This document shows positions 33,947 to 55,146 of a DNA stretch of 64,000 bases, one piece after another (the first letter of the stretch is position 1; each line of letters starts with the position of its first letter). The notes beneath the pieces are model-generated. The model searched no databases. It worked only from the letters and a program-made list of their open reading frames with translations, and was not told where the DNA came from. The position numbers and the translations under genes were made by a program. Location: positions 18,135 through 82,134 of the forward strand of contig JAFATA010000075.1 of the NCBI GenBank assembly GCA_019244165.1. Direction: 5' to 3'. This stretch comes from Pseudonocardiales bacterium. GTDB lineage: Bacteria > Actinomycetota > Actinomycetes > Mycobacteriales > Pseudonocardiaceae.

Positions 33947-35248
33947 GTGGACCCGCTGACCGCGCTGTCGGCGCAGTTTGACCCGTTGCGCCCGCTGGAG
34001 GCGAACGAAACCGACCTGTACGTGGACTGGCAGGATCAGCTTGATACCGCTGATGACGTCAAGGTGCGGTTGGCCAACTCGATCGCCCGCAGCTCGGTGC
34101 CGGTCACGCGCCTGTTTACCGGGCATCGCGGTGCCGGCAAGACGACCGAGCTGAACCGGGTGCGCCAGCGTCTTCAGGACGGCGTCGGCGGTCGCCGGGT
34201 GTTCGTGTCGATGCTGTTCGCCGAGCGCTGGGTCCATCTCAATGACGTCCAGCCCGAGGATCTAGTTTACCAGATCGTTCGCCAGTTGGTTGATGACCTC
34301 ACGAAGGCCGGTTTCTCGTTTGCGGAGACGAAATTCCGCACCGCGCTGGGAAGTGTGCGTGACTTCTTCAAGAGCCACGTTGCCTTGGACAAGGCCGATG
34401 TGGGGATCGACCCGGTGAAGCTCAGCCTGCGGTTCGAGGCGTTCCCGACCGCTCGCAAGGAGTTCCGCAAGCTGCTGCAAGGCCTACTGCCGACAATTTA
34501 CGACCTGACCAACGACAAGATCCTGCGCCAGGCGCGAGAGTGGCTAGCGCAGCCGGAGCACGGCGGCTACGCCGACATCGCGATTATCGTTGATCAGCTT
34601 GACCGCATTCCGCGCAAGCAGCTCAACGGTTACACCAATCACGAGAACCTCTTCCTCGACCACGTGGGAGCCCTGCGGGCGTTGAACTGCGATGTGCTCT
34701 ACACCATTCCGATCGAGCTGGCTTACAGTCGGGCGCATGCCCGGCTGCAGGACGCCTACGGCAGCGAGATCCTGGCACTGCCCGCGGTCCCGGTCGCCAC
34801 TCGTGACGGTGGCGAGTTCCCCGCGGGCGTGGCGGCGCTGCGCGAGATCGTCCGGCGGCGCGTGGACAAGGCGGGTGTCGCTCTCGATGAGGTGTTCGCC
34901 GAACGGGACCTGCTAGAGGACGTCTTGCGGTACTCGGGTGGGCACATTCGGGGGCTATTCGTGATGCTGCAGTCGATCCTGCACCGCGCCGCGGAGCTGC
35001 CGATTAGCCGAGCAATCACCCAGCGGGGGCTGCGGCGCGCCGCGGCGGACCTGGCCGTGCCGTTGCGCCCGCCAGACTGGGAGCTGCTGGCGTGCGTCCA
35101 TGAGTCTCATGACAAGGTGGGAGAGGATCACGATGTCTGGAACGAGCTGCTGCGTGACCGGTTCGTGCTGGCCTACGAGGACGAAGACGGTCACTGGTAT
35201 GACCGGAATCCGTTGCTAGGACTGCGTGGGTCGGGTAGACATCGATGA
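33947..35248 (+). CDS. AAA/P-loop ATPase
   Basis: Walker A GHRGAGKTTE; Walker B-like IAIIVDQLD; stop overlaps start of 35245 (ATGA). Confidence 0.75.
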   Translation: MDPLTALSAQFDPLRPLEANETDLYVDWQDQLDTADDVKVRLANSIARSSVPVTRLFTGHRGAGKTTELNRVRQRLQDGVGGRRVFVSMLFAERWVHLNDVQPEDLVYQIVRQLVDDLTKAGFSFAETKFRTALGSVRDFFKSHVALDKADVGIDPVKLSLRFEAFPTARKEFRKLLQGLLPTIYDLTNDKILRQAREWLAQPEHGGYADIAIIVDQLDRIPRKQLNGYTNHENLFLDHVGALRALNCDVLYTIPIELAYSRAHARLQDAYGSEILALPAVPVATRDGGEFPAGVAALREIVRRRVDKAGVALDEVFAERDLLEDVLRYSGGHIRGLFVMLQSILHRAAELPISRAITQRGLRRAAADLAVPLRPPDWELLACVHESHDKVGEDHDVWNELLRDRFVLAYEDEDGHWYDRNPLLGLRGSGRHR

Positions 35249-37245
35249 ACGCGGCGGCCACGACACCGGCGGAGGAGAATAGCCAGGAGCTAGCGGCACT
35301 ATGCCGGATGCTGACCCGAGCCAGCGGTTTCCGGTTGGGATTCGTCGTCGCGAACCACCCGTCATTGCGTAGCCGGATTGCGCGGGACTGTGCGCGGACC
35401 TGTGGCGTGCGTCCCCGGGAGCTCACGCTCGATGGGCGTGCGCCGGAGGGGATCGTCACGCAGTTAGAGCAAGCGGTCGGCGAGGATCAGCCGACCGCGC
35501 TGTTCGTCTACGGGCTGGAATCCCTGCTCGACTTACGCCTGCGCCAGTCTCCGGCAATGGACCTGCTCAACCTCAACCGGGATTATTGCTGGCAGCGTTT
35601 CCCGTGGCCGGTCGTCTTCGTGGCGCCGCTGTTCGCCGTGCGCGAGTTCGCTCGTCAGGCTCCCGACTTCTGGTCGGGACGAACGGGCGTGTATCGCTTC
35701 ACCGGGGACCGCGACGACATCCACGAAACCCTGGCCGGACTGGGAATCGACTACGACTGGTCGTTGGAGGCTTCATCCAAGCTTGAGCGAGGTGAAATTC
35801 TCGACCACGTCCAGGCCGAACTCGCCGGCCGGTCGGATGAGGACCCTGAAATCAGGGTGGAGTTGCTGTCGTTGCTGGCCCGAGCCGCTTCCTTTGCGCA
35901 CGACTGGCCAAGAGAGCAGCAGCTGCTGGCACAAGCACTCCCGATCTACCGCCACATCGGCGACCGCCACGGCGAAGCGAATACGATCAAAACGCTGGGG
36001 GACGTAGCGCTCCAGCAGGACCGCTACCAGGAGGCCACGGAGCACTACGAGCAGACACTCCCAATCTACCGCCAGAGCGGCGACCGGCGCGGCGAAGCAT
36101 ATGCGATCAAAGCGCTCGGGGACGTAGCACTGCGGCAGTCCCGCTTCCAGGAGGCCACGGAGCACTACGAGCAGGCACTCCCAATCTACCGCCAGAGCGG
36201 CGACCGGCGCGGCGAAGCATATGCGATCCAGGCCCTGGGGGACGTAGCACTGCGGCAGGCCCGCTATACGCAGGCTACCGAGCACTACGAGCAGGCACTC
36301 CCAATCTACCGCCACATCGGCGACCGCCACAGCGAAGCGAATACGATCAAAACGCTGGGGGACGTAGCACTGCAGCAGTCCCGCTACCAGGAGGCCACGG
36401 AGCACTACGAGCAGGCACTACGGATCTACCGCCAGATCAGCGCCCGGCGCGGCGAAGCATATGCGATCCAGGCCCTGGGGGACGTAGCACTGCGGCAGGC
36501 CCGCTATGCACAGGCCACAGAGCACTACGAGCAGGCACTGCCGATCTACCGCCAGATCGGCGCCCGCCACAGCGAAGCAAACACGATCAAGGCACTGGGA
36601 GACGCGGCGCGGATGCAGGCCCGCTATGCACAGGCCACGGAGCACTACGAGCAGGCACTACGGATCTACCGCCAGATCGGCGCCCGGCGCGGCGAAGCAA
36701 ACACGATCAAAGCGCTGGGGGACGTAGCACTGCGACAGAACCGCTACCAAGAGGCCACCGAGCACTACGAGCAGGCACTCCCGATCTACCGCCAGATCGG
36801 CGCCCGGCACGGCGAAGCTAATGTGATCCAAGGACTGGGTGACGTGGCGCTGAAACAGTCCCGTTACGACGAAGCCGCTGGGCAGTATGACCAATCGCTG
36901 CCGGTCTACCGCCAGATCGGCGACCGGCTCGGCGAAGCGAACGCGATCAAGGCCCTGGGTGACGTGGCGCTGGCGCAGGCCCGCTATGCGGAGGCCGCTA
37001 AGCACTACCAGCAGGCACTGCCGATCTACCGCCAGATCGGCGACCGGCTCGGCGAAGCGAACGCCCTAGTTTCGCGCGCCCGGCTAGCAATCGCCACGGG
37101 TAAGCGCGCGGACGCCGTTTCGGAGATGGCCGAGGCGATCCACATTTACACCGCCATCGGCCTCACCAAGCGGGCCGAAACGCTCCAGTCCGAAGTAGCT
37201 ACCTGGGAGACCACCGGTGCTGAGATGTCGGACTACAGTGAGTGA
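35245..37245 (+). CDS. TPR-repeat protein with N-terminal ATPase-like domain
   Basis: About nine 40-aa units of the type ALPIYRQIGDRRGEAxAIKALGDVALRQxRYQEATEHYEQ plus a degenerate final unit. Confidence 0.8.
   Translation: MNAAATTPAEENSQELAALCRMLTRASGFRLGFVVANHPSLRSRIARDCARTCGVRPRELTLDGRAPEGIVTQLEQAVGEDQPTALFVYGLESLLDLRLRQSPAMDLLNLNRDYCWQRFPWPVVFVAPLFAVREFARQAPDFWSGRTGVYRFTGDRDDIHETLAGLGIDYDWSLEASSKLERGEILDHVQAELAGRSDEDPEIRVELLSLLARAASFAHDWPREQQLLAQALPIYRHIGDRHGEANTIKTLGDVALQQDRYQEATEHYEQTLPIYRQSGDRRGEAYAIKALGDVALRQSRFQEATEHYEQALPIYRQSGDRRGEAYAIQALGDVALRQARYTQATEHYEQALPIYRHIGDRHSEANTIKTLGDVALQQSRYQEATEHYEQALRIYRQISARRGEAYAIQALGDVALRQARYAQATEHYEQALPIYRQIGARHSEANTIKALGDAARMQARYAQATEHYEQALRIYRQIGARRGEANTIKALGDVALRQNRYQEATEHYEQALPIYRQIGARHGEANVIQGLGDVALKQSRYDEAAGQYDQSLPVYRQIGDRLGEANAIKALGDVALAQARYAEAAKHYQQALPIYRQIGDRLGEANALVSRARLAIATGKRADAVSEMAEAIHIYTAIGLTKRAETLQSEVATWETTGAEMSDYSE
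35934..37053 (+). repeat. Tandem 120-nt coding repeats (TPR units)
   Basis: Exact 120-nt periodicity visible at two 60-nt lines per unit; highly similar units. Confidence 0.9.
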
Positions 37246-44401: not shown

Positions 44402-45625
44402 GTGTATCGCCGCGGAGCAGGGGGCTTGTTCGTGGATGTTGACGAGGATGCGCGCATGATCGGCCGGCGGGTACGCCTGATCCGCAAGTCCCGGCGTAAG
44501 TCGCTGGAGGTGATCGCCGGGCTGGCCGGGATGAGCAAGTCGGAGCTGTCCCGCATCGAACTCGGCCAACGTGCCCTGGACCGCCGCTCCAAAATCGTGG
44601 CCCTGGCCAACGCGCTGCAAGTAGCCCCCTCCGAGCTGACCAACGTTGACGTACCCGCGCCCGGCAACGGGGACAATGACGCTGCCGCGGAGGCGGTGCA
44701 CCGCTCGCTCATGGCGGTCAGCCGCAACCGGCCCGGCGGGCAGGTACTCGGCGTCGATGAGCTGCGCAGCCGGGTCCGGGCAGTGCTCGACGCCGAACGC
44801 CAGTGCCGGTGGATCGAGATCCGTGCCGCGCTGCCCATGCTGATCCGGGATCTGCATACCTCGATCGCCGCCGGTCGGGACGTAGCCGAGCTACACGACC
44901 TGGCGGTGACGCTGCACGTGACAGGCGCGGGTCGATGGCTGCGGGTCATGGGCGCCGGGGTGGAGCTGCGCTCACTCAACACATTGGTGGCCCGCCAGGC
45001 CGCCGAGCGCCGCGACGATCCGACCATGCTGGGCCTGGCCGTGTGGTGTGACGGGCTGGTGATGATCTCAGCCGGGGACTTCGAGCTGGCCCAGGCCGAG
45101 CTGGACACGGTCACCGTGCCGACGAACACTCCGGAGTCGATGCAGCTGGCGGGCCAGCTCGCCCTGTGCCAATCGTACGTGGCTGCGGTAGACCAGCGCC
45201 CGGCGGACGTCGATGCGGCCCTGGACTACGCCAGCGAGCTGGCAGAGCGCACCGGGGAGGGCAACGCCTACGGGTTGGGGTTCGGTCCGACCAACGTGGG
45301 CCTCTGGCGGCTGCAGGAGGCTGCGGAAGTCGGGGACTACGCGCGCGCCGCCGCCATTGCGGAACGCCTGGACCCGCGGGTGCACCCCAGCCGGTCGCGT
45401 CAGTCTCATTACTGGATGGATTACGGCCGGGCACTGGCCCGGCTGCGGGGAAGGCAGGATGACGCGGTGGTGGCACTGCGCCGCAGCGAGCTGCTCAATG
45501 CGCTGGAGATGCAGCGCGATCCGTTCGTCCGTGAGGTGCTCGGCGAGTTGCTGGTCCGCTCCCGCCAAGACGCGGTGGGCCGGGAGCTGCGGGGTATGGC
45601 CTACCGCGCCGGCCTGCCGGTGTAA
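44402..45625 (+). CDS. XRE-family regulator with TPR-like domain (copy 2)
   Basis: MIGRRVRLIRKSRRKSLEVIAGLAGMSKSELSRIELGQRALDRRSKIVALANALQVAPSEL. Confidence 0.87.
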   Translation: MYRRGAGGLFVDVDEDARMIGRRVRLIRKSRRKSLEVIAGLAGMSKSELSRIELGQRALDRRSKIVALANALQVAPSELTNVDVPAPGNGDNDAAAEAVHRSLMAVSRNRPGGQVLGVDELRSRVRAVLDAERQCRWIEIRAALPMLIRDLHTSIAAGRDVAELHDLAVTLHVTGAGRWLRVMGAGVELRSLNTLVARQAAERRDDPTMLGLAVWCDGLVMISAGDFELAQAELDTVTVPTNTPESMQLAGQLALCQSYVAAVDQRPADVDAALDYASELAERTGEGNAYGLGFGPTNVGLWRLQEAAEVGDYARAAAIAERLDPRVHPSRSRQSHYWMDYGRALARLRGRQDDAVVALRRSELLNALEMQRDPFVREVLGELLVRSRQDAVGRELRGMAYRAGLPV

Positions 45626-45769
45626 CCCATCCGAGGCGCACTCCCCCTCGTTTCCCTTTATGGGGAAACCGGCTGTTGCTGATCAACCATTGTCGTCGCT
45701 CATGGCCAACGCGACTAACGACCTACCAGGGCACCGGCGGACACAGTCGATCGCCGGAATCGGGCTGGG

Positions 45770-45997
45770 ATGAGCGAACCATTGCCCGACGGTGTCTTCC
45801 ACCTCCTGACCGCCGATAACCTGGTACGCCAAAACCACGGGATCCACATCACTGTTTGCGGGGAGGACATTCCCACGTCGGACCTGCCCCCCTCGTGCTA
45901 TGACGAGAATAGCGACAACTTCGACCACAATCCCGCCTACTGCCCCGAATGCGTCCGCGAAGCCGCCCGCTGGAACGCCGAACCTGAGCAACCTTGA
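45770..45997 (+). CDS. Small Cys-rich protein (small ORF-B, copy 2)
   Basis: MSEPLPDGVFHLLTADNLVRQNHGIHITVCGEDIPTSDLPPSCYDENSDNFDHNPAYCPECVREAARWNAEPEQP. Confidence 0.65.
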   Translation: MSEPLPDGVFHLLTADNLVRQNHGIHITVCGEDIPTSDLPPSCYDENSDNFDHNPAYCPECVREAARWNAEPEQP

Positions 45998-46000
45998 ACG

Positions 46001-46165
46001 CCAGTAGGCTGGGCTGATGTCCGAACGGGTCGAGCCGAACGTCTCCGATGTCGCCGCTGGGCAGGGGGCTGATCATGTTGCCGCGCTGATCGCGGGGCGC
46101 GCTCCGGAGGCGGTGCGGCGGCGCGCCGCGCTCGGTCTGGTTGTCTCGGGCGGGCGGCACGAGAT
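46001..46165 (+). pseudogene. Truncated 5' fragment of the BpsA-like gene (intact copy at 53449)
   Basis: GCCAGTAGGCTGG.CTGATGTC and DVAAGQGADHVAALIAGRAPEAVRRRAALGLVVSGGRHE match the 53449 gene start. Confidence 0.75.
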
Positions 46166-46248
46166 GTCGCATGACAGCGGGATCATGGAAAATTCTGCCC
46201 TGAGCCCGGAATAGGAACTCCTCCGGCCAGCAAGGGAGCCAGGGAACG

Positions 46249-46419
46249 ATGATCGCCACCACAACCGAGAGCCCCGCCGGGGTTGAGGACGCTTTCGACC
46301 TTGACCTGCGGATCATCAACGACGTTCCCCCTGGCCACCCGCTCGCCGCCTGCAAAGGCAATACCGATGACGGGTGCGACCCCAGCTGCGCCTCCGCGTG
46401 CGTCACCGGCGGCATGTGA
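46249..46419 (+). CDS. FxLD-family lanthipeptide precursor (not in supplied ORF track)
   Basis: MIATTTESPAGVEDAFDLDLRIINDVPPGHPLAACKGNTDDGCDPSCASACVTGGM; FxLD motif in leader, 4 Cys plus Ser/Thr core; immediately upstream of LanB. Confidence 0.87.
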   Translation: MIATTTESPAGVEDAFDLDLRIINDVPPGHPLAACKGNTDDGCDPSCASACVTGGM

Positions 46420-46435
46420 GACCCGCCGTTCCGCA

Positions 46436-49400
46436 ATGAAGTCGCTCTACCGACATACTGACGTCGCGCTGCTTCGGGCCGCCGCCGCGCCGTTGACCAA
46501 CGCCCCCGACCAGTGGCCCGACCTGACTGATACCAGGGCGTGTCGCGGCTGGTTAGATCAGATGTGGTCCCGAGTCGATCTCGTCGACGCTGTCCGGCAG
46601 GCCAGCCCTTCCCTAGGCGACCGTGTGGACGCCATCCGTGCCGGTCAGGCCGTGAGCGACAAGGAGATCCGCAGTGCCACCCTGTCTACCGCGCGCTACC
46701 TGCTCCGTAGCATCGGCCGCCCCACGCCCTTCGGTCTGTTCGCCGGTGTGGCACCGATGACCTTTGGAAAGACGGCTCAGGTGCGCTGGGGCGACGATCA
46801 TCGGGCCATTGCCCGCGTCAACACCGAGTGGCTGGCCGACATCATCGCTCGCGCTGAGGGATGCCCGGAGCTGCTGGAACGGCTTCACGTGGTGGTCACC
46901 GACCTCGCGGTGCGGCGCGGTGAGCGACTCGAAGTGCCGCAGGGGCCCAACCGGGCGAGCATCCGGTACACCAGCGCGGTCGCGGCAGTGTGGGACGCAG
47001 CGGCAACCCCGGTCCGATTCGGTGCCCTGATCGACAAGCTGGCCGAGGACTTCACCGTCGACCGGCTGACCGTCCGGGGCCTGCTCACCGAACTCGTGCG
47101 CCAGGGGTACCTCCTCACCAACCTACGGGCCCCGTTCACGGTCACCGATCCGCTCGCTCACCTGGTGGATCGGCTGCACGACGTCGAAGCGGACACCCTC
47201 CCCGCCGCCGCACCCCTGATGCGCGAACTCGAAGCCGTCCAAGCCGAGCTGGCCCGCCATAACCACAAGATGACCACGAGGGCCGAGCAGCGCCGCGTAC
47301 GCGAGACAATCACGCGCCACATGCGGGGGCTATCCCAGGCCGGGCGCACCCCACTGGCTGCGGACCTGCTACTCGACTGTGATGTCCGGCTGCCCCACCA
47401 CGTCGCCCAGGAGATGGAGCAGGCCGCCAGCGCGCTGCTGCGCCTTACACGGCGGCCGACCGGTGAACCGGCCTGGCGGCACTACCATGCCGCATTCGTG
47501 GACCGGTACGGCACCGACACACTGGTGCCGCTCACCGCCATGCTCGACCCGGACGCCGGCCTGGGGTACCCGGCGGGGTATCGCGGTAGCGTGCTGCCCG
47601 CGCCGACGGCGGACATTTCGGAGCGTGACGAACGGCTACTGGCGATGGCCTGGCAGGCGATGGCCGACGGTACCCGCGAGATCATCCTCACCGACGAACA
47701 GGTTCTCGACCTGACCGACGAGACGTTCGATCAGCGGTACATCCCGCCGCACGTGGAGTTGTCCGCCCGCATCCACGCCGCCAGCGCACAGGAGTTGGAG
47801 CGCGGCGAGTTCACTCTCACCGTCGCCCCCGCCCGTTCCGCCGGAACGCTCACCAGCCGCTTCACCCCGATGGCCACCGGATCTGGCCTGGCGGGGACGT
47901 ACCGGGCGTTGCCTGCCGCCACCGAAGGCGCACTCCGTGCGCAACTGAGCTTCGGGCCGCTCTACCCGCACGCGGAGAACGTCTGCCGCGTCCCTGCATA
48001 CCTAGATCACGTGCTCCCGCTCGGGGAACACCGTGAGCCCGGCGACGACACGCTGCTCACGGTGGACGACTTGGCCATCACCGCGACCCAGGACCGCCTG
48101 CACCTGGTCAGCATCTCGCGTCGCCGGGTGGTCGAGCCGCAGGTGTTTCACGCACTCGCGCTGGACAAGCAGCCCCCGCCGCTGGCGCGGTTCCTGGCTC
48201 AACTGCCCCGGGCGTTCAGCGCCGCCTGGTACCAGTTCGACTGGGGTCCACACGTCGGGCTGCCGTTTCTGCCCCAAGTGCGCTACCAGCGCACCATCCT
48301 GTCCCCCGCGCAGTGGCGGCTGGCCGCCGAGGACTTACCCCCCGATCAGGCTGGTCAGAGTGCGTGGCGGCAGGTTCTTGAGCGGTGGCGGCGCCAATGG
48401 GGATGCCCTGAGGCGGTTGAGCTGCGCGACGCGGACCGCACGCTGCGCCTTAACCTCAATGAGTCTGTCCACGCCACTCTTTTGCACGCCCACCTGCGGC
48501 GGCACGGGCAGGCCATCCTCTCCGCGGCCACCCCAGCAGCCGAGTTCGAGTGGATCGATGGCCATGCCCACGAAGTCGCGCTGCCCCTGGTCACGACGCG
48601 CACCGCCGCACCCAGCCCGCTACGCGGCTGCCTGCCCGAGGTGACCAACACCCACGGGCACCTGCCCGGCTCCCCGGAGGCGACCTGGCTCTCGGCGAAG
48701 GTCTATACCCATCCCGAGCGGATGAACGAGATCATCACCGAGCACCTGCCCACGCTCCTGGCCACTCTGGGCACCACGTCCTGCTGGTGGTTGCGCTACC
48801 ACAGCCCGCAGGAGACCGACCACCTCCGCCTGCGCATCCGCACCGAGGGCAACCACTACGCTGCCTACGCGGGCGCAGTCGGTAAGTGGACGCAGCGGAT
48901 GCGACAGGCGGGGATGGTCGGACAGCTGGTCCTCGACACCTACTACCCCGAGATCGGCCGCTATGGGCACGGCGTGGCGCTGGAGGCGGCCGAGGACGTC
49001 TTCGCCACCGACTCGCGCGCCACCGCCGCTGGACTGCGGATCCTGCCCACCGCCGCCCACCCCACCGCGCTGGCCGTGGCGAACATGGTGGGCATTGTTA
49101 GCGGCTTCCTCGGCGGCATCGCCGAAGCGATGGACTGGCTGGCCGCCCGGCCGGCTCCCACCACGCCTGCACGGGAACGGGCGGTGACCGACCAGGCGAT
49201 TCGGCTGGCCATGGCCGATGAGCTGCGGAAGTTGCCCGGCTGGGCGGACGAGGTTGGCCAGGCGTGGCAGGCACGCGCCGACGCGCTGGCTGCCTACCAC
49301 ACACAACTGCCGCCGGAGGCGGACATAGACGTCGTGGTGGAGTCCCTGCTGCACCTGCACCACAATCGGGCCATCGGCATCGACCCGGTCAGTGAGCGGA

Positions 49401-49456
49401 CGTGCCGCCGCCTGGCCCGGCAGGCCGCGATCACCTGGCGAGTGCGGCAGCACTAA
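46436..49456 (+). CDS. Class I lantibiotic dehydratase (LanB) with C-terminal SpaB_C-like elimination domain
   Basis: PTPFGLFAGVAPMTFG; long LanB-type ORF with C-terminal LATLGTTSCWWLRYHSPQETDHLRLRI; start MKSLYRHTDVA at 46436. Confidence 0.88.
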   Translation: MKSLYRHTDVALLRAAAAPLTNAPDQWPDLTDTRACRGWLDQMWSRVDLVDAVRQASPSLGDRVDAIRAGQAVSDKEIRSATLSTARYLLRSIGRPTPFGLFAGVAPMTFGKTAQVRWGDDHRAIARVNTEWLADIIARAEGCPELLERLHVVVTDLAVRRGERLEVPQGPNRASIRYTSAVAAVWDAAATPVRFGALIDKLAEDFTVDRLTVRGLLTELVRQGYLLTNLRAPFTVTDPLAHLVDRLHDVEADTLPAAAPLMRELEAVQAELARHNHKMTTRAEQRRVRETITRHMRGLSQAGRTPLAADLLLDCDVRLPHHVAQEMEQAASALLRLTRRPTGEPAWRHYHAAFVDRYGTDTLVPLTAMLDPDAGLGYPAGYRGSVLPAPTADISERDERLLAMAWQAMADGTREIILTDEQVLDLTDETFDQRYIPPHVELSARIHAASAQELERGEFTLTVAPARSAGTLTSRFTPMATGSGLAGTYRALPAATEGALRAQLSFGPLYPHAENVCRVPAYLDHVLPLGEHREPGDDTLLTVDDLAITATQDRLHLVSISRRRVVEPQVFHALALDKQPPPLARFLAQLPRAFSAAWYQFDWGPHVGLPFLPQVRYQRTILSPAQWRLAAEDLPPDQAGQSAWRQVLERWRRQWGCPEAVELRDADRTLRLNLNESVHATLLHAHLRRHGQAILSAATPAAEFEWIDGHAHEVALPLVTTRTAAPSPLRGCLPEVTNTHGHLPGSPEATWLSAKVYTHPERMNEIITEHLPTLLATLGTTSCWWLRYHSPQETDHLRLRIRTEGNHYAAYAGAVGKWTQRMRQAGMVGQLVLDTYYPEIGRYGHGVALEAAEDVFATDSRATAAGLRILPTAAHPTALAVANMVGIVSGFLGGIAEAMDWLAARPAPTTPARERAVTDQAIRLAMADELRKLPGWADEVGQAWQARADALAAYHTQLPPEADIDVVVESLLHLHHNRAIGIDPVSERTCRRLARQAAITWRVRQH

Positions 49457-49471
49457 TCCGGAGGGAGCTGG

Positions 49472-50740
49472 ATGACCACGACCGATACCCAGGCCGAGGA
49501 CCTGCGCAACAGCCTGATCGACCACATCCGGGAAGCTGGCCACCTCCACTCCAGCAGCATCGAACGAGCACTGCGGACAGTGCCCCGCCACCTGTTCGTG
49601 CCCGAGGCCACCCTCCAGGAGGCCTACGCCAACAAGGCCATCACTACCAAGCCCGGTCCCGAGGGTGGCAGGCCCGCGAGCTGTGCTTCCCAGCCCACGG
49701 TCGTGGCGATGATGCTCGGCCAGCTCGATGCCCGCCCCGGCGATCGCGTCTTGGAGATCGGTGCGGGCACCGGCTACAACGCCGCGCTGCTGGCCGAACT
49801 CGTCGGGGCGAGCGGCGAGGTGACCACGGTCGACATCGCCCCGGACGTGAGTCGGCAGGCCCAGCTCGCACTGGAGGCAACCGGCTACGGACGCGTGCAC
49901 GTCGTCACAGGCGACGGTGTGCGCGGCGCGCCAGAGCATGCTCCCTACCAGCGCATCATCGTCACCGTCGGCCCGTGGGACTTACCGCCGGCCTGGTTGC
50001 ACCAGCTCGCTCCCGGTGGCCGTCTAGTGGTGCCGCTGCACTGGCGCGGGCAGGCCCGAAGCGTGGCCTTCGTCCACGAGAATGGTGTTCTGCAGGCCCG
50101 CGACAGCCAGCTCTGCGGTTTTATCCCGATGATCGGCGAGGGGCAGGACGGTGAGCGCACCGGTCGTATCGCCGAGGGTGTCGCCCTGTACTGGGACCGG
50201 GACCAGCCCATCGACGTGGAGGCGCTCCAGGGAGTCCTCGAGGAGCCTGGGACCACCGTGTGGTCCGGGGCGTCGGTGGTCCCCAATGAGTCCACCGATC
50301 GAATCTGGCTACGTCTGACCGGCACCGAGCCGGGAACCTGCCGCTTCGCCGCCGCTCCCGACGCTATCAACTCCGACCTGTGTAGCCCCGCCTTCGCCTA
50401 CCGCAGCCCCGGCGTGGTCGAAGGCGACTCGCTGGCCTATCTCACCTTGCGCGGTCCCGAGCCCGACGCCGTCGAACGCCGCTGGGAACTCGGTGCCATC
50501 GGCCACGGCCCCGCCGGGGCGCAGCTTGCCGAACGCGTGTGCGACCAGATCCGCGCCTGGGACCGCGACCGCACCGAACAGCCCGTCATCACCGCCTACC
50601 TGGCAGGCGTGCCGTTGGGTGAACTGGCAGGCGGGCAGGTCATGGACAAGCAGTTCACCCGGCTCGTGGTGGCTCCACACACCCGTTGTGGGAGCCTCCC
50701 CATGATCACGGCAGGTAGACGGACAAGGATGCGCTCATGA
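49472..50740 (+). CDS. PIMT-like methyltransferase of FxLD lanthipeptide systems
   Basis: EAYANKAITTK...ASQPTVVAMMLGQLDARPGDRVLEIGAGTGYNAALLAELVG. Confidence 0.82.
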   Translation: MTTTDTQAEDLRNSLIDHIREAGHLHSSSIERALRTVPRHLFVPEATLQEAYANKAITTKPGPEGGRPASCASQPTVVAMMLGQLDARPGDRVLEIGAGTGYNAALLAELVGASGEVTTVDIAPDVSRQAQLALEATGYGRVHVVTGDGVRGAPEHAPYQRIIVTVGPWDLPPAWLHQLAPGGRLVVPLHWRGQARSVAFVHENGVLQARDSQLCGFIPMIGEGQDGERTGRIAEGVALYWDRDQPIDVEALQGVLEEPGTTVWSGASVVPNESTDRIWLRLTGTEPGTCRFAAAPDAINSDLCSPAFAYRSPGVVEGDSLAYLTLRGPEPDAVERRWELGAIGHGPAGAQLAERVCDQIRAWDRDRTEQPVITAYLAGVPLGELAGGQVMDKQFTRLVVAPHTRCGSLPMITAGRRTRMRS

Positions 50741-51910
50741 TCGGTCGGAAGGTGCGTCTGATCCGCCGCAGCCAGCGCAAGTCCCTGGAGGTGGTTGCCG
50801 GGCTGGCTGGGATGAGCAGGTCGGAGCTGTCCCGCATCGAGCTCGGCCAACGCGCACTCGACCGCCGATCCAAGATCGTGGCCCTGGCCAACGCGCTGCA
50901 AGTAGCCCCCTCTGAGCTGATCAACGTTGACGTACCCGCGCCCGGTATTGGGGAAGGCGAGGCGGTAAAAGCGGTCCGGCGCGCGCTGGTCGCGGTCAGC
51001 CGCCACCGGCCCGGCGGGCAGGTCCTCGGCATCAAGGAGTTACGGAGCCGGGTCCGGGCCGTGCTGGACGCCGACCGCCAGTGCCGATGGGTCGGGGTCG
51101 ATGCCGCGCTGCCCGGGCTGATCCGGGATCTGCACACCTCAATCAGGGCCGGTCGGGACGTGGCCGAGCTGCTCGACCTGGCGGTGATGCTGCACGTAAA
51201 TGGCACGGGTGCATGGCTGGGGGGCATAGGTGCTGGGGCGGAGCTGCGCTCGCTCAACATGTTGGTGGCCCGCCAGGCCGCCGAGCACCGCGACGACCCG
51301 ACCATGCTGGGTCTCGCGGTGTGGGGTGACGGGCTGGTGATGCTCTCAGCCGGAGACGTCGAGCTGGCCCGGGCTGAGCTGGACGCGGTCGCCGTGCCGA
51401 CGAACACCCCAGAGTCGATGCAGATGGCGGGCGAGCTCGCCCTGTGCCAGTCGTACGTACGTGGCCGCGGTAGACCAGCGCCCAGCGGACGTGGAGGCGG
51501 CCATGGACCACGCCAGCGAGTTGGCCGAACGCACCGGGGAGGGCGATGCCTACGGGTTGTGGTTCGGCCCCACCAACGTGGGCATCTGGCGGTTGCACGA
51601 TGCTGTGGAGGTTGGGGACTACGCGCGCGCCGCCGCCGTTGCGGAAGACCTGAACCCGCGGGAGCACCCCAGCCGGGAGCGTCAGGCCGCGTACTGGAGC
51701 AACTACGGTCGGGCGCTGGCCCGAGTGCGGGGACGGCAGGATGATGCGGTGTTGGCGTTGCGCCGCAGCGAGATGCTCTACGCGACGCGCATGCAGCACG
51801 ACCCGTTCGTCCGCGACGTGCTCGGCGAGTTGGTAGTCCGGTGGCGTCGGGACACCCCCATCGGTCGGGAGCTGCGGGGGATGGCCTACCGCGCTGGTCT
51901 GCCGATGTAA
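50737..51910 (+). pseudogene. XRE-family regulator (copy 3), frameshifted by a 4-bp tandem duplication
   Basis: TCGTACGTACGTGGCC at 51451-51466 versus TCGTACGTGGCT in copy 2; ORFs 50737..51744 and 51461..51910 together restore the full protein. Confidence 0.85.
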
Positions 51911-51976
51911 CCCATCCGGGGGACGTTTCCCCTTGAGGGGAGATCCACTGCTGCTGATCAACCATGGTCATCGCTC

Positions 51977-52204
51977 ATGACCACGAGCAATCGCCGGAAT
52001 CGTCGGGTGCTCCACGCCACGTGCATGCTGCACAAAGGCCCGATAGGCTTCGTCAACCTCGCCGTCCGCAAGGTGGAGGCCCCCTCCGCTGTGGCGCCCG
52101 AATTCATCGAGTTTGACCCGCACGTCACCGGGACCTGCGTCATCCGCCTCGACGAAACCGCCGCGAAGCAACTGTTCGACCTCCTCGGGGAGTGGCTGAG
52201 GTGA
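51977..52204 (+). CDS. Small protein (small ORF-A, full-length)
   Basis: MTTSNRRNRRVLHATCMLHKGPIGFVNLAVRKVEAPSAVAPEFIEFDPHVTGTCVIRLDETAAKQLFDLLGEWLR. Confidence 0.6.
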   Translation: MTTSNRRNRRVLHATCMLHKGPIGFVNLAVRKVEAPSAVAPEFIEFDPHVTGTCVIRLDETAAKQLFDLLGEWLR

Positions 52205-52449
52205 GCGAACCATTGCCGGAAGGCGTCTTTCACCTCCTGACCGCCGACAACATGGTGCGCCATCCCTTCTATGGGACCTACATCACTGTCTGCGGGGAGG
52301 ACGTGCCCGCGTCGGACCTGCCACCGTTGTGCTACGACGACGATGACGGCGACATCGTCCGCAACCCCGCGTACTGCCCAGAATGCGTCCGCGAGGCCGC
52401 CCGCTGGAACGCCGAGCCTGGCCAGACCCGACCACCCACCGACACCTGA
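52192..52449 (+). CDS. Small Cys-rich protein (small ORF-B, copy 3)
   Basis: EPLPEGVFHLLTADNMVRH...CGEDVPASDLPPLCYDDDDGDIVRNPAYCPECVREAARW. Confidence 0.65.
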   Translation: MAEVSEPLPEGVFHLLTADNMVRHPFYGTYITVCGEDVPASDLPPLCYDDDDGDIVRNPAYCPECVREAARWNAEPGQTRPPTDT

Positions 52450-52985
52450 TGGCCCACAGCGAGGACCGGATGCGCAAAACCATCGACGCCGCCGATGTGT
52501 GCGCGGTGTTAGTTTCGGGCGGCTTGGATTCGTTGGCTGTGCTGGTCCGGTTGTGTCAGATTTCCGCAGGGACCGGCCGCCGGGTGCTCGGTGTCTGCGC
52601 CGAGATGACCGACGATTGCGGGTTGTCGAACGTTCCGGTGCTTGAGCGTTTGCTACGAGATCTGCGACTCGACTGTGAGCTTCTCGTTGTGCGGCGCCAC
52701 GAGTCGCCGGATGCGGCTCCTACCTGGTCTCCAGACGGGCCGAGGCTTGATGCTCTACCCGAGGTGAATCGGCTCGTATGCGCACGCGCTGCTACGGCTG
52801 GGGCCACGCTGGTGTTGCACGGTAGCGGTGCTGATGGCGCCGCGTTGCGTGAGGGCGTGGCGTTGGTTGCGCCGTGGCTGCCTGGGCGAACGCGAGCACT
52901 GTCCTACCTCGCGGCGGATTGCCCGCATCTGGCAACGGCGAGCGTTCCCCGGCTCATCGGGGTGCGGTACCGCGACATCGTTTAG
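52449..52985 (+). CDS. PP-loop ATPase-like protein (asparagine-synthase-domain-like), short/possibly truncated
   Basis: VLVSGGLDSLAVL PP-loop and LHGSGADG; ATG overlaps preceding stop. Confidence 0.6.
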   Translation: MAHSEDRMRKTIDAADVCAVLVSGGLDSLAVLVRLCQISAGTGRRVLGVCAEMTDDCGLSNVPVLERLLRDLRLDCELLVVRRHESPDAAPTWSPDGPRLDALPEVNRLVCARAATAGATLVLHGSGADGAALREGVALVAPWLPGRTRALSYLAADCPHLATASVPRLIGVRYRDIV

Positions 52986-53227
52986 CAGCGGATAGACCGG
53001 TGGATTGACGGTCTGGTGTCCTGGCATCGGGATTGTCACGCAGACTGGGCTGCTATGGCGGCATGGGACTCGATGGCTCGCGGGCGTCCGGTTCCCACAC
53101 CTGGCCCGAATCAAATGGGCGAGTCCGTTCGAAGCATCGCGGGCGCGCGAAGTGTGCCTACTGGCGCGCGAAGCGCCTGATAGTGGAGCTATTTCCGGAG
53201 AGTGAACGGCACATCCGCGCAAGGACT

Positions 53228-53288
53228 GATCACGGTTTGTGTGCCGTAGGCGACAATACGTGTCGCCTACGGCACACAAACCGTGATC
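53228..53288. terminator. Long hairpin, 28-bp perfect arms, 5-nt loop (possible terminator)
   Basis: GATCACGGTTTGTGTGCCGTAGGCGACA-atacg-TGTCGCCTACGGCACACAAACCGTGATC. Confidence 0.75.
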
Positions 53289-53448
53289 TCGAGCTTGTTC
53301 GGAAAAAAGACTCGCTGCTCCTCGCGCGGGTGGCTGCGGTCGAGGAATGGCTCTCGGGCGCCGAGCGGATGAGCTACGACATTGCGTGACGCCGTGCAGT
53401 GGCCGGAGGAGGTCATCGGTGGCTGATCGATGCCAGTAGGCTGGACTG

Positions 53449-55146
53449 ATGTCTGAGCAGGCCGAGCCGAATGCCTCTGATGCCGCCGCTGGCCAGGGGG
53501 CTGCTCATGTTGCCGCGCTGATCGCGGGGCGTGCTCCGGAGGCGGTGCGTCTGCGTGCCGTGCTCGGTCTGGTTGTCTCGGGTGGCCGGCACGAAATTCC
53601 GCACCTCGTGCGCAGTTGTGGCCTGTCGCGTCAGTTGGTGCTCGGTCTGTTGCGCAGCGCGGGGGCTGACATCGGGTGGGACGGGGACACCGTGTGGTTC
53701 GCTGGCGTCCAGCGGGATTATCAGGAGCTGATCGCGGCGGAATCGGCGTCCTCGAGTCATGCTGACGACTCTGTTCCTGTTGTTCTTGTGGAGCGGATGC
53801 GCGGCATTCTCGCTCGCGTTCCACCGCCGATCCATGGACTTGACCAGGTTCCGGCGACGGCGGAAACGGTGCTGCGGCGGGCACGATACCTCGCCCGCGA
53901 GTTCAATCTCGACCAGACGCGTCTGCTGTTCATCGGTGATCACGACTGCACGTCGCTGGCGTTCGCTGTGCTCGGTGTCGCACCGCGCTCGGTGACCGTC
54001 GTCGATATCGACGAACGGCTACTGGCCTTCCTTGCCGGCCAGCCCCAGGCGGCCGACGGGTCGATCACCCCATTGTTCGCCGACCTTCGGCTTGGGTTGC
54101 CCGAATCGGCGCGGGCGGCGCATGACGTGGCGTTCACCGACCCGCCCTACACCGCTGACGGCGTCGGGTTGTTTGTCGCGCGCGCGGTGGAGGGTCTGAC
54201 GGAACCGGCCAAGGGACGGATTTTGGTGGCGTATGGCTATTCGGAGTCGACACCGGCCCTGGGGCTCAAGGTGCAACGCGCCCTCACCGATCTGGAGCTG
54301 CTGTTCGAGGCCGTGTTGCCCGACTTTAACCATTACGATGGCGCCCAGGCCATCGGTTCGCGGGCTGACCTCTACCGACTTCGGCCAACCAAAAGAACGG
54401 ACCGAATCGCCCTGCGCGCCCTCGCCCGGTACGGCAAGACCATGTACACCCACGGCAGCCAATCCGAGGAAAGCCGCGACGGCAGCACCAGAGCAGCCGC
54501 AGAAGACACCGTGGCTCAGAGTGTGGTGGAGCAGTTCGGTGGCGGCACTGCCCCCTTGCTCGTCGGCGCCGGTTGGGCGGGACACAACGTGGTGCCCATC
54601 GAGGGTTTCCTGTCTGCGGAGAAATCATCGCGGCAGGCCGAAACAACGATCATCGATCTCCGGCCGCTGTTCGGGTGGTCACTCATCCGGGCCGCGTTGA
54701 CCGCGACCAGCGAGCGGACCATCATCATCGCGCCTCGGGATGCCTATGGGTTACACTCGGCGACCGAGTCCGCTTATCTCCGCGCGGCGCTGGAACCTAG
54801 CTACCAGGTCGAGAACATTCAGCGTTCCTTCTGCGGCACCGACTCCGCCGTTGTCGAGCTTCGACGCACCGCCACGGAATCCGTCGCGACGAATGTCTGG
54901 CGCCGCCCACACAGCAGGGCCGCCACCACCTGGCGCGAAAGCCTGATCGCCGCAGCCCGACTGCACGGAACCGAACTGACCAAGAACCAGGCACGAACGC
55001 TCATCGAGCAGACACAACTTACCACCAGCGTCACCGATCACCATCTCATCGACCTCCCCATCGCTACTCTCGCGCGGCTTCACCAAGCGATTGACGAGAC
55101 GGCACGCCCCTACTCGGTCGGCGATGGCCACACTGGGCTCATATGA
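53449..55146 (+). CDS. Bis-aminopropyl spermidine synthase (BpsA)-like methyltransferase-fold protein with extra C-terminal region
   Basis: RLLFIGDHDCTSLAFAVLG...VTVVDIDERLLAFL...HDVAFTDPPYTADGVGLFVARAVEGL. Confidence 0.65.
   Translation: MSEQAEPNASDAAAGQGAAHVAALIAGRAPEAVRLRAVLGLVVSGGRHEIPHLVRSCGLSRQLVLGLLRSAGADIGWDGDTVWFAGVQRDYQELIAAESASSSHADDSVPVVLVERMRGILARVPPPIHGLDQVPATAETVLRRARYLAREFNLDQTRLLFIGDHDCTSLAFAVLGVAPRSVTVVDIDERLLAFLAGQPQAADGSITPLFADLRLGLPESARAAHDVAFTDPPYTADGVGLFVARAVEGLTEPAKGRILVAYGYSESTPALGLKVQRALTDLELLFEAVLPDFNHYDGAQAIGSRADLYRLRPTKRTDRIALRALARYGKTMYTHGSQSEESRDGSTRAAAEDTVAQSVVEQFGGGTAPLLVGAGWAGHNVVPIEGFLSAEKSSRQAETTIIDLRPLFGWSLIRAALTATSERTIIIAPRDAYGLHSATESAYLRAALEPSYQVENIQRSFCGTDSAVVELRRTATESVATNVWRRPHSRAATTWRESLIAAARLHGTELTKNQARTLIEQTQLTTSVTDHHLIDLPIATLARLHQAIDETARPYSVGDGHTGLI

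Follow-up and report, generated by a model that had tools for sequence, protein, structure and literature searches.

Methyltransferases of the PIMT type are the commonest auxiliary enzymes of class I lanthipeptide clusters (PMC13001092; PMC10787088; PMC7268733), and the conserved core Asp of such precursors sits in a TxDGC motif (PMC13001092; PMC10787088). In the lanthimiditide system OlvA/OlvB/OlvC/OlvSA of Streptomyces olivaceus NRRL B-3009 (JACS 2019; PMC13001092, PMC7268733) the methyltransferase OlvSA converts the core Asp by methylation to an aspartimide and then mainly to isoAsp, and it modified only peptide that had been processed by both OlvB and OlvC, so that LanC must act before OlvSA (PMC13001092). 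The same review notes that these methyltransferases and their LanCs do not seem to have evolved together (PMC13001092). Imiditides and pamtides are made by the same methyltransferase family, with its C-terminal extension (PMC10787088, PMC13001092), but in those systems it acts as the primary enzyme and LanB is absent. Thioether peptides formed without any LanC are represented by the class V triantimycins, which use LanK/LanY for dehydration (cited in PMC12328550). A large lanthipeptide survey was anchored on the LanC domain, by a PF05147 search with class I assigned only where a LanB lay near (PMC7268733), and cassettes without LanC are therefore invisible to surveys of this design.

The locus analysed here, in a 64,000-nucleotide stretch of a Pseudonocardiales metagenome-assembled genome (MAG; the stretch is hereafter the window), resembles the olv system, compared by description, in its conserved core Asp, its LanB and its PIMT-type methyltransferase (MT). 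The olv cluster has its own LanC acting ahead of the methyltransferase, whereas the window cassette has none; in having a class I LanB it likewise differs from the triantimycin system and from the imiditides and pamtides.

The FxLD precursor and its partner enzymes

The locus comprises the following features, in window coordinates.

46207..50684, + strand: A-B-MT cassette, the extent of homology with the orthologous block L124 (alignment to Pseudonocardiales MAG CP_BM_ER_28)
46249..46419, + strand: LanA, FxLD lanthipeptide precursor, 56 aa (translation, TIGR04363, homologues, core motif)
46436..49456, + strand: LanB dehydratase, 1006 aa (PF04738 glutamylation and PF14028 elimination domains, both complete)
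49457..49471, + strand: LanB-MT junction of 15 nt, the site of lanC in clade relatives (alignment of junctions)
49472..50740, + strand: LanSA, FxLD-system PIMT-type O-methyltransferase, 422 aa, with a C-terminal extension (TIGR04364)

The precursor gene runs from ATG 46249 to TGA 46417-46419 with the LanB ATG directly downstream, exactly where an earlier note, made from the sequence alone, had placed a hidden FxLD precursor missing from the list of open reading frames. Its omission from that list is real and trivial, because a product of 56 aa falls short of the usual 60-aa cut-off and because mechanical calling started LanB at TTG 46283, overlapping the precursor in another frame. The TIGR04363 match (E = 1.5e-10, 40.9 bits; 39.9 bits at genome scale) exceeds the curated cut-off of 30 bits and is not a chance hit but marks a genuine FxLD precursor, a confirmed member of a known family. 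A PDB sequence search with the precursor returned no relative, the best match (E = 1.3) being at chance level. The leader carries an FDLD box (F16-D17-L18-D19), as had been read there, and the core contains the four Cys (35, 43, 47, 51) and their potential Ser/Thr partners (T39, S46, S49, T53), together with the conserved-Asp motif T-x-D-G-C of the FxLD family as T39-D40-D41-G42-C43. Close homologues, with the near-invariant core C-x(3)-T-D-D-G-C-D-P-[TS]-C-A-S-A-C, adjoin close LanB homologues on their 5' side in Saccharothrix, Actinokineospora, Streptoalloteichus, Frankia and two MAGs; these are the homologous precursors on whose existence the earlier note had made its reading depend.

The LanB is full length, with both domains that a class I system needs, and keeps 54/54 near-invariant columns, in the window and L124 alike. 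The methyltransferase matches TIGR04364 at 430.6 bits against a cut-off of 320 bits, over model positions 1-392 of 394 and thus including the C-terminal extension, and keeps 33/34 near-invariant columns, the one change being D159Q. The partnership of LanB and PIMT-type methyltransferase that had been proposed for the precursor is borne out by these family models, one of which had been named as a check. Promoter and terminator scans of the locus found nothing.

As targets of the methyltransferase the Asp residues of both TDDGC and CDP had been suggested. The Asp of T-x-D-[G/N/E]-C is common to nearly all precursors extracted in the survey described below, which makes D41 the expected and likely target and upholds the first suggestion; the CDP Asp (D44) is conserved among these precursors only within the window's clade, and the second suggestion is not retained. 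The proposed aspartimide/isoAsp chemistry is supported by the family models and by the characterised relative OlvA/OlvSA (PMC13001092), and is already described for these 'lanthimiditides' and their TxDGC motif.

Absence of a local LanC

There is no PF05147 (LanC) match on the window's contig (C78), a point that the earlier note had passed over, and since the local LanC is missing the window does not hold a complete class I cluster. To place this absence we surveyed 60 loci, which cover the neighbourhoods (18 kb in most cases) of FxLD precursors in other genomes of the family, together with relatives at the level of class and genus, and located the A, B, C and MT genes in them with purpose-built profiles. 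In 67 of the loci LanB is nearly full length and is followed by 1.5 kb or more of sequence; LanC adjoins LanB in 64 of these, including L084, in which lanC overlaps the end of lanB. The three exceptions are all within the window's genus: the window, its orthologue L124, and a locus on another contig of the window's genome (L032 on C67, 5887-10619). This last has the order MT-A-B with intact LanB and MT, each without two near-invariant residues; its precursor (MDATTPSTADDELDLDVRF...KECTDDECEHTRGCT) is unusual and was not among the matches of the TIGR04363 search. In the open-licence literature, a narrow scope, we found no relevant description of LanB clusters without a LanC.

The dominant gene orders in the survey are MT-A-B-C and A-B-C-MT, and the window falls inside the A-B-C-MT clade in both the LanB tree and the MT tree. 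This nesting indicates that a LanC once lay between B and MT and was lost, so that the A-B-MT order looks like A-B-C-MT after one clean deletion. The A-B-C-MT clusters of Pseudonocardiaceae and Frankia (e.g. L125 of Saccharothrix coeruleofusca, L126 of Actinokineospora iranica and L130 of Saccharothrix sp. ALI-22-I) share the orthologous core TDDGCDP[TS]CASAC, a LanB about 70-73% identical and the MT, but have lanC between lanB and MT where the window and L124 do not. The RBS-like stretch 5' of the window MT start is similar to the junction between C and MT in L130, which does have LanC.

An orthologous cassette and evidence of selection

The L124 block, apparently the same record as contig C45 of genome G153 in the window's genus, is 83-88% identical to the window cassette at the nucleotide level, and a single unbroken alignment spans its B-MT junction, which is the same as in the window. 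Comparison of the two gives dN/dS of 0.32 for LanB (neutrality p = 2.7e-20) and 0.23 for MT (p = 1.7e-16; both from a simple site-count test), values within those of seven LanC-bearing pairs (0.22-0.35 for LanB, 0.12-0.26 for MT). For the 56-codon precursor by itself dN/dS is 0.41 and purifying selection is not significant (p = 0.06). By these ratios LanB and MT have been under purifying selection since the window and L124 split, and this is the main argument for a cassette that is functional with no LanC beside it.

A rearranged order A-B-MT-C in L124 was considered and rejected. The LanC scrap on its flank, 60 aa long, is a remnant of a different type of cluster: it shares 80% identity with the LanC on contig C40 of the window genome and clearly less with the LanCs of the cassette's clade.

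LanCs elsewhere in the two genomes

The window genome, a 3.7-Mb MAG in 85 contigs, encodes three single-domain LanCs, on contigs C10, C40 and C18, each with a LanB of its own next to it, so that the LanC of a class I system is present in the genome if not at the locus. The C40 LanC keeps 48/48 near-invariant residues, that of C10 47/48, and the divergent C18 LanC 39/48. In the L124 genome LanCs are found at C118, C192 and C195. In the LanC tree no assembled LanC of either genome lies in the cognate A-B-C-MT clade, and a LanC acting in trans would therefore be heterologous. At the C10 locus a stand-alone LanB elimination domain (PF14028; L010, 5230-6168) lies directly 3' of the LanC.

Proposed maturation and its alternatives

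The reading that we favour, with moderate confidence, is of a class I lanthimiditide-type FxLD cassette that lost its LanC by one clean deletion and remains functional through the LanC of a sister FxLD cluster in trans. LanB would dehydrate Ser/Thr of the core, whose two Thr, two Ser and four Cys could suffice for four rings; thioether rings would then close, one probably from T39 to C43, and the methyltransferase would methylate D41 within this T39-C43 ring to give an aspartimide that may open to isoAsp. Since the characterised methyltransferase needs a cyclised substrate and that of the window is under selection, rings probably do form on the window peptide, by analogy with OlvA, and a sister LanC is their simplest source, most likely that of C10 or C40 and less so that of C18. 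Counting against this are the putative nature of sister-LanC action on the window peptide, the heterologous character that such an enzyme would have, the 87-88% completeness of both MAGs, which means that a cognate LanC could be unassembled, the many broken FxLD clusters in the genus, and the p value of 0.06 for the precursor.

Its main rival, which we think unlikely, is that maturation is free of LanC: the dehydroamino acids made by LanB would close without a cyclase, or the methyltransferase would act on uncyclised dehydrated peptide, with other rings or stereochemistry as a result. Ring formation without LanC is reported in class V (triantimycins, cited in PMC12328550), and a weak hint comes from position 46, which is Ser, the source of the more reactive Dha, in both LanC-less orthologues and Thr in the LanC-bearing clade relatives compared. 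However, this Ser represents a single evolutionary event and is also seen in other clades at loci that do have LanC (L069, L072-L074), intact LanCs exist in the window genome, and OlvSA was active only after both OlvB and OlvC had processed the peptide (PMC13001092).

Rather less probable again is that the locus is a relict, a cluster that lost LanC and is now decaying like other broken FxLD loci of the genus. Such loci are common in both genomes. In that of the window, the C80 locus (L012, 6114-7384) has its LanB in pieces and a truncated core, and in the C40 locus (L011, 6863-11417) LanB and MT are each split by a frameshift while LanC and precursor are intact, breaks that could be decay or MAG errors; in G153 the FxLD loci of C28 and C20 are also broken. 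The D159Q change at a near-invariant site of the window MT points the same way. Against decay, two 4.5-kb copies have split since LanC was lost and yet keep intact frames and, in LanB and MT, the dN/dS of complete clusters.

We regard it as improbable that the cognate LanC was moved rather than lost and sits in sequence that the assembly of these MAGs does not reach. With completeness of 87.95% (window genome) and 87% (L124 genome) there is room for it, but both MAGs would need to have missed it, and no LanC found belongs to the cognate clade. An artefact that dropped lanC during contig building, conceivable in a MAG of so many contigs, is close to refuted by the recurrence of the junction in a second MAG, at 88% nucleotide identity and in a different genomic setting.

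If the cassette does work, cyclisation is uncoupled in it from precursor, dehydration and Asp modification, and it provides a natural setting in which to ask whether a single LanC acts on several FxLD peptides in a cell. It is in addition a natural experiment on whether the methyltransferase must have a cyclised substrate.

Flanking repeats, proposed mobility and genome context

The cassette lies between two direct repeats.

44441..46171, + strand: left direct repeat, with a regulator of the XRE type at 44402-45625, a small ORF at about 45770-45997 and the 52 initial codons of the gene present whole at 53449 (alignment)
50722..53603, + strand: right direct repeat, with a frameshifted XRE copy, the small ORF and the start of the 53449 gene (alignment)

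The repeats are 82-88% identical in three blocks. The XRE copy of the right repeat is frameshifted near 51460, and about 1 kb (52421-53431), unique to this repeat, contains most of an Asn-synthase-like ORF (52383-52985). The 565-aa product of the 53449 gene (53449-55146) matches the C-terminal domain of branched-chain polyamine synthase (PF01861, 107.8 bits). A second copy of the gene's first 52 codons lies 5' of the precursor (46017-46172), so that the left repeat ends in a truncated copy.

The flanks of the window and L124 cassettes are unrelated. The L124 cassette sits inside a decayed C40-type cluster, with an MT remnant on its left (84-88% nucleotide identity to C40 of the window genome) and the LanC remnant on its right (86%). 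In the window genome's own C40 a scrap 5' of its MT (L011, 4628-4811) has a window-type LanB piece abutting a C40-type LanC piece, which suggests that an arrangement similar to that of L124 was once present in the window genome also. The best reading of these sequences is that the cassette is transferable between sites, and we would guess that it moves by homologous recombination between FxLD loci and their neighbours. A wider proposal, which we put forward tentatively and with rather less conviction than LanC supply in trans, is of a mobile cyclase-less cassette of precursor, dehydratase and Asp methyltransferase that moves into other FxLD clusters and is selected without a LanC of its own, drawing on a shared LanC pool or on LanC-free class I closure.

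Aspartyl-methyltransferase peptide clusters show a large and very uneven expansion in the genus. The window genome has 46 PCMT-family (PF01135) matches at E <= 1e-15 in its 3.7 Mb, against 0 to 38 in ten congeners, and 19 hits to TIGR04187, an ATP-grasp peptide maturase, of which some are partial and several directly adjoin PCMT matches. Elsewhere in the window, the ORF at 35245-37245 contains tandem 120-nt repeats (about 36000-37139; at least 8 copies, 66-89% identical to the first), which correspond to a 40-aa protein repeat in an array that may start before 36000.
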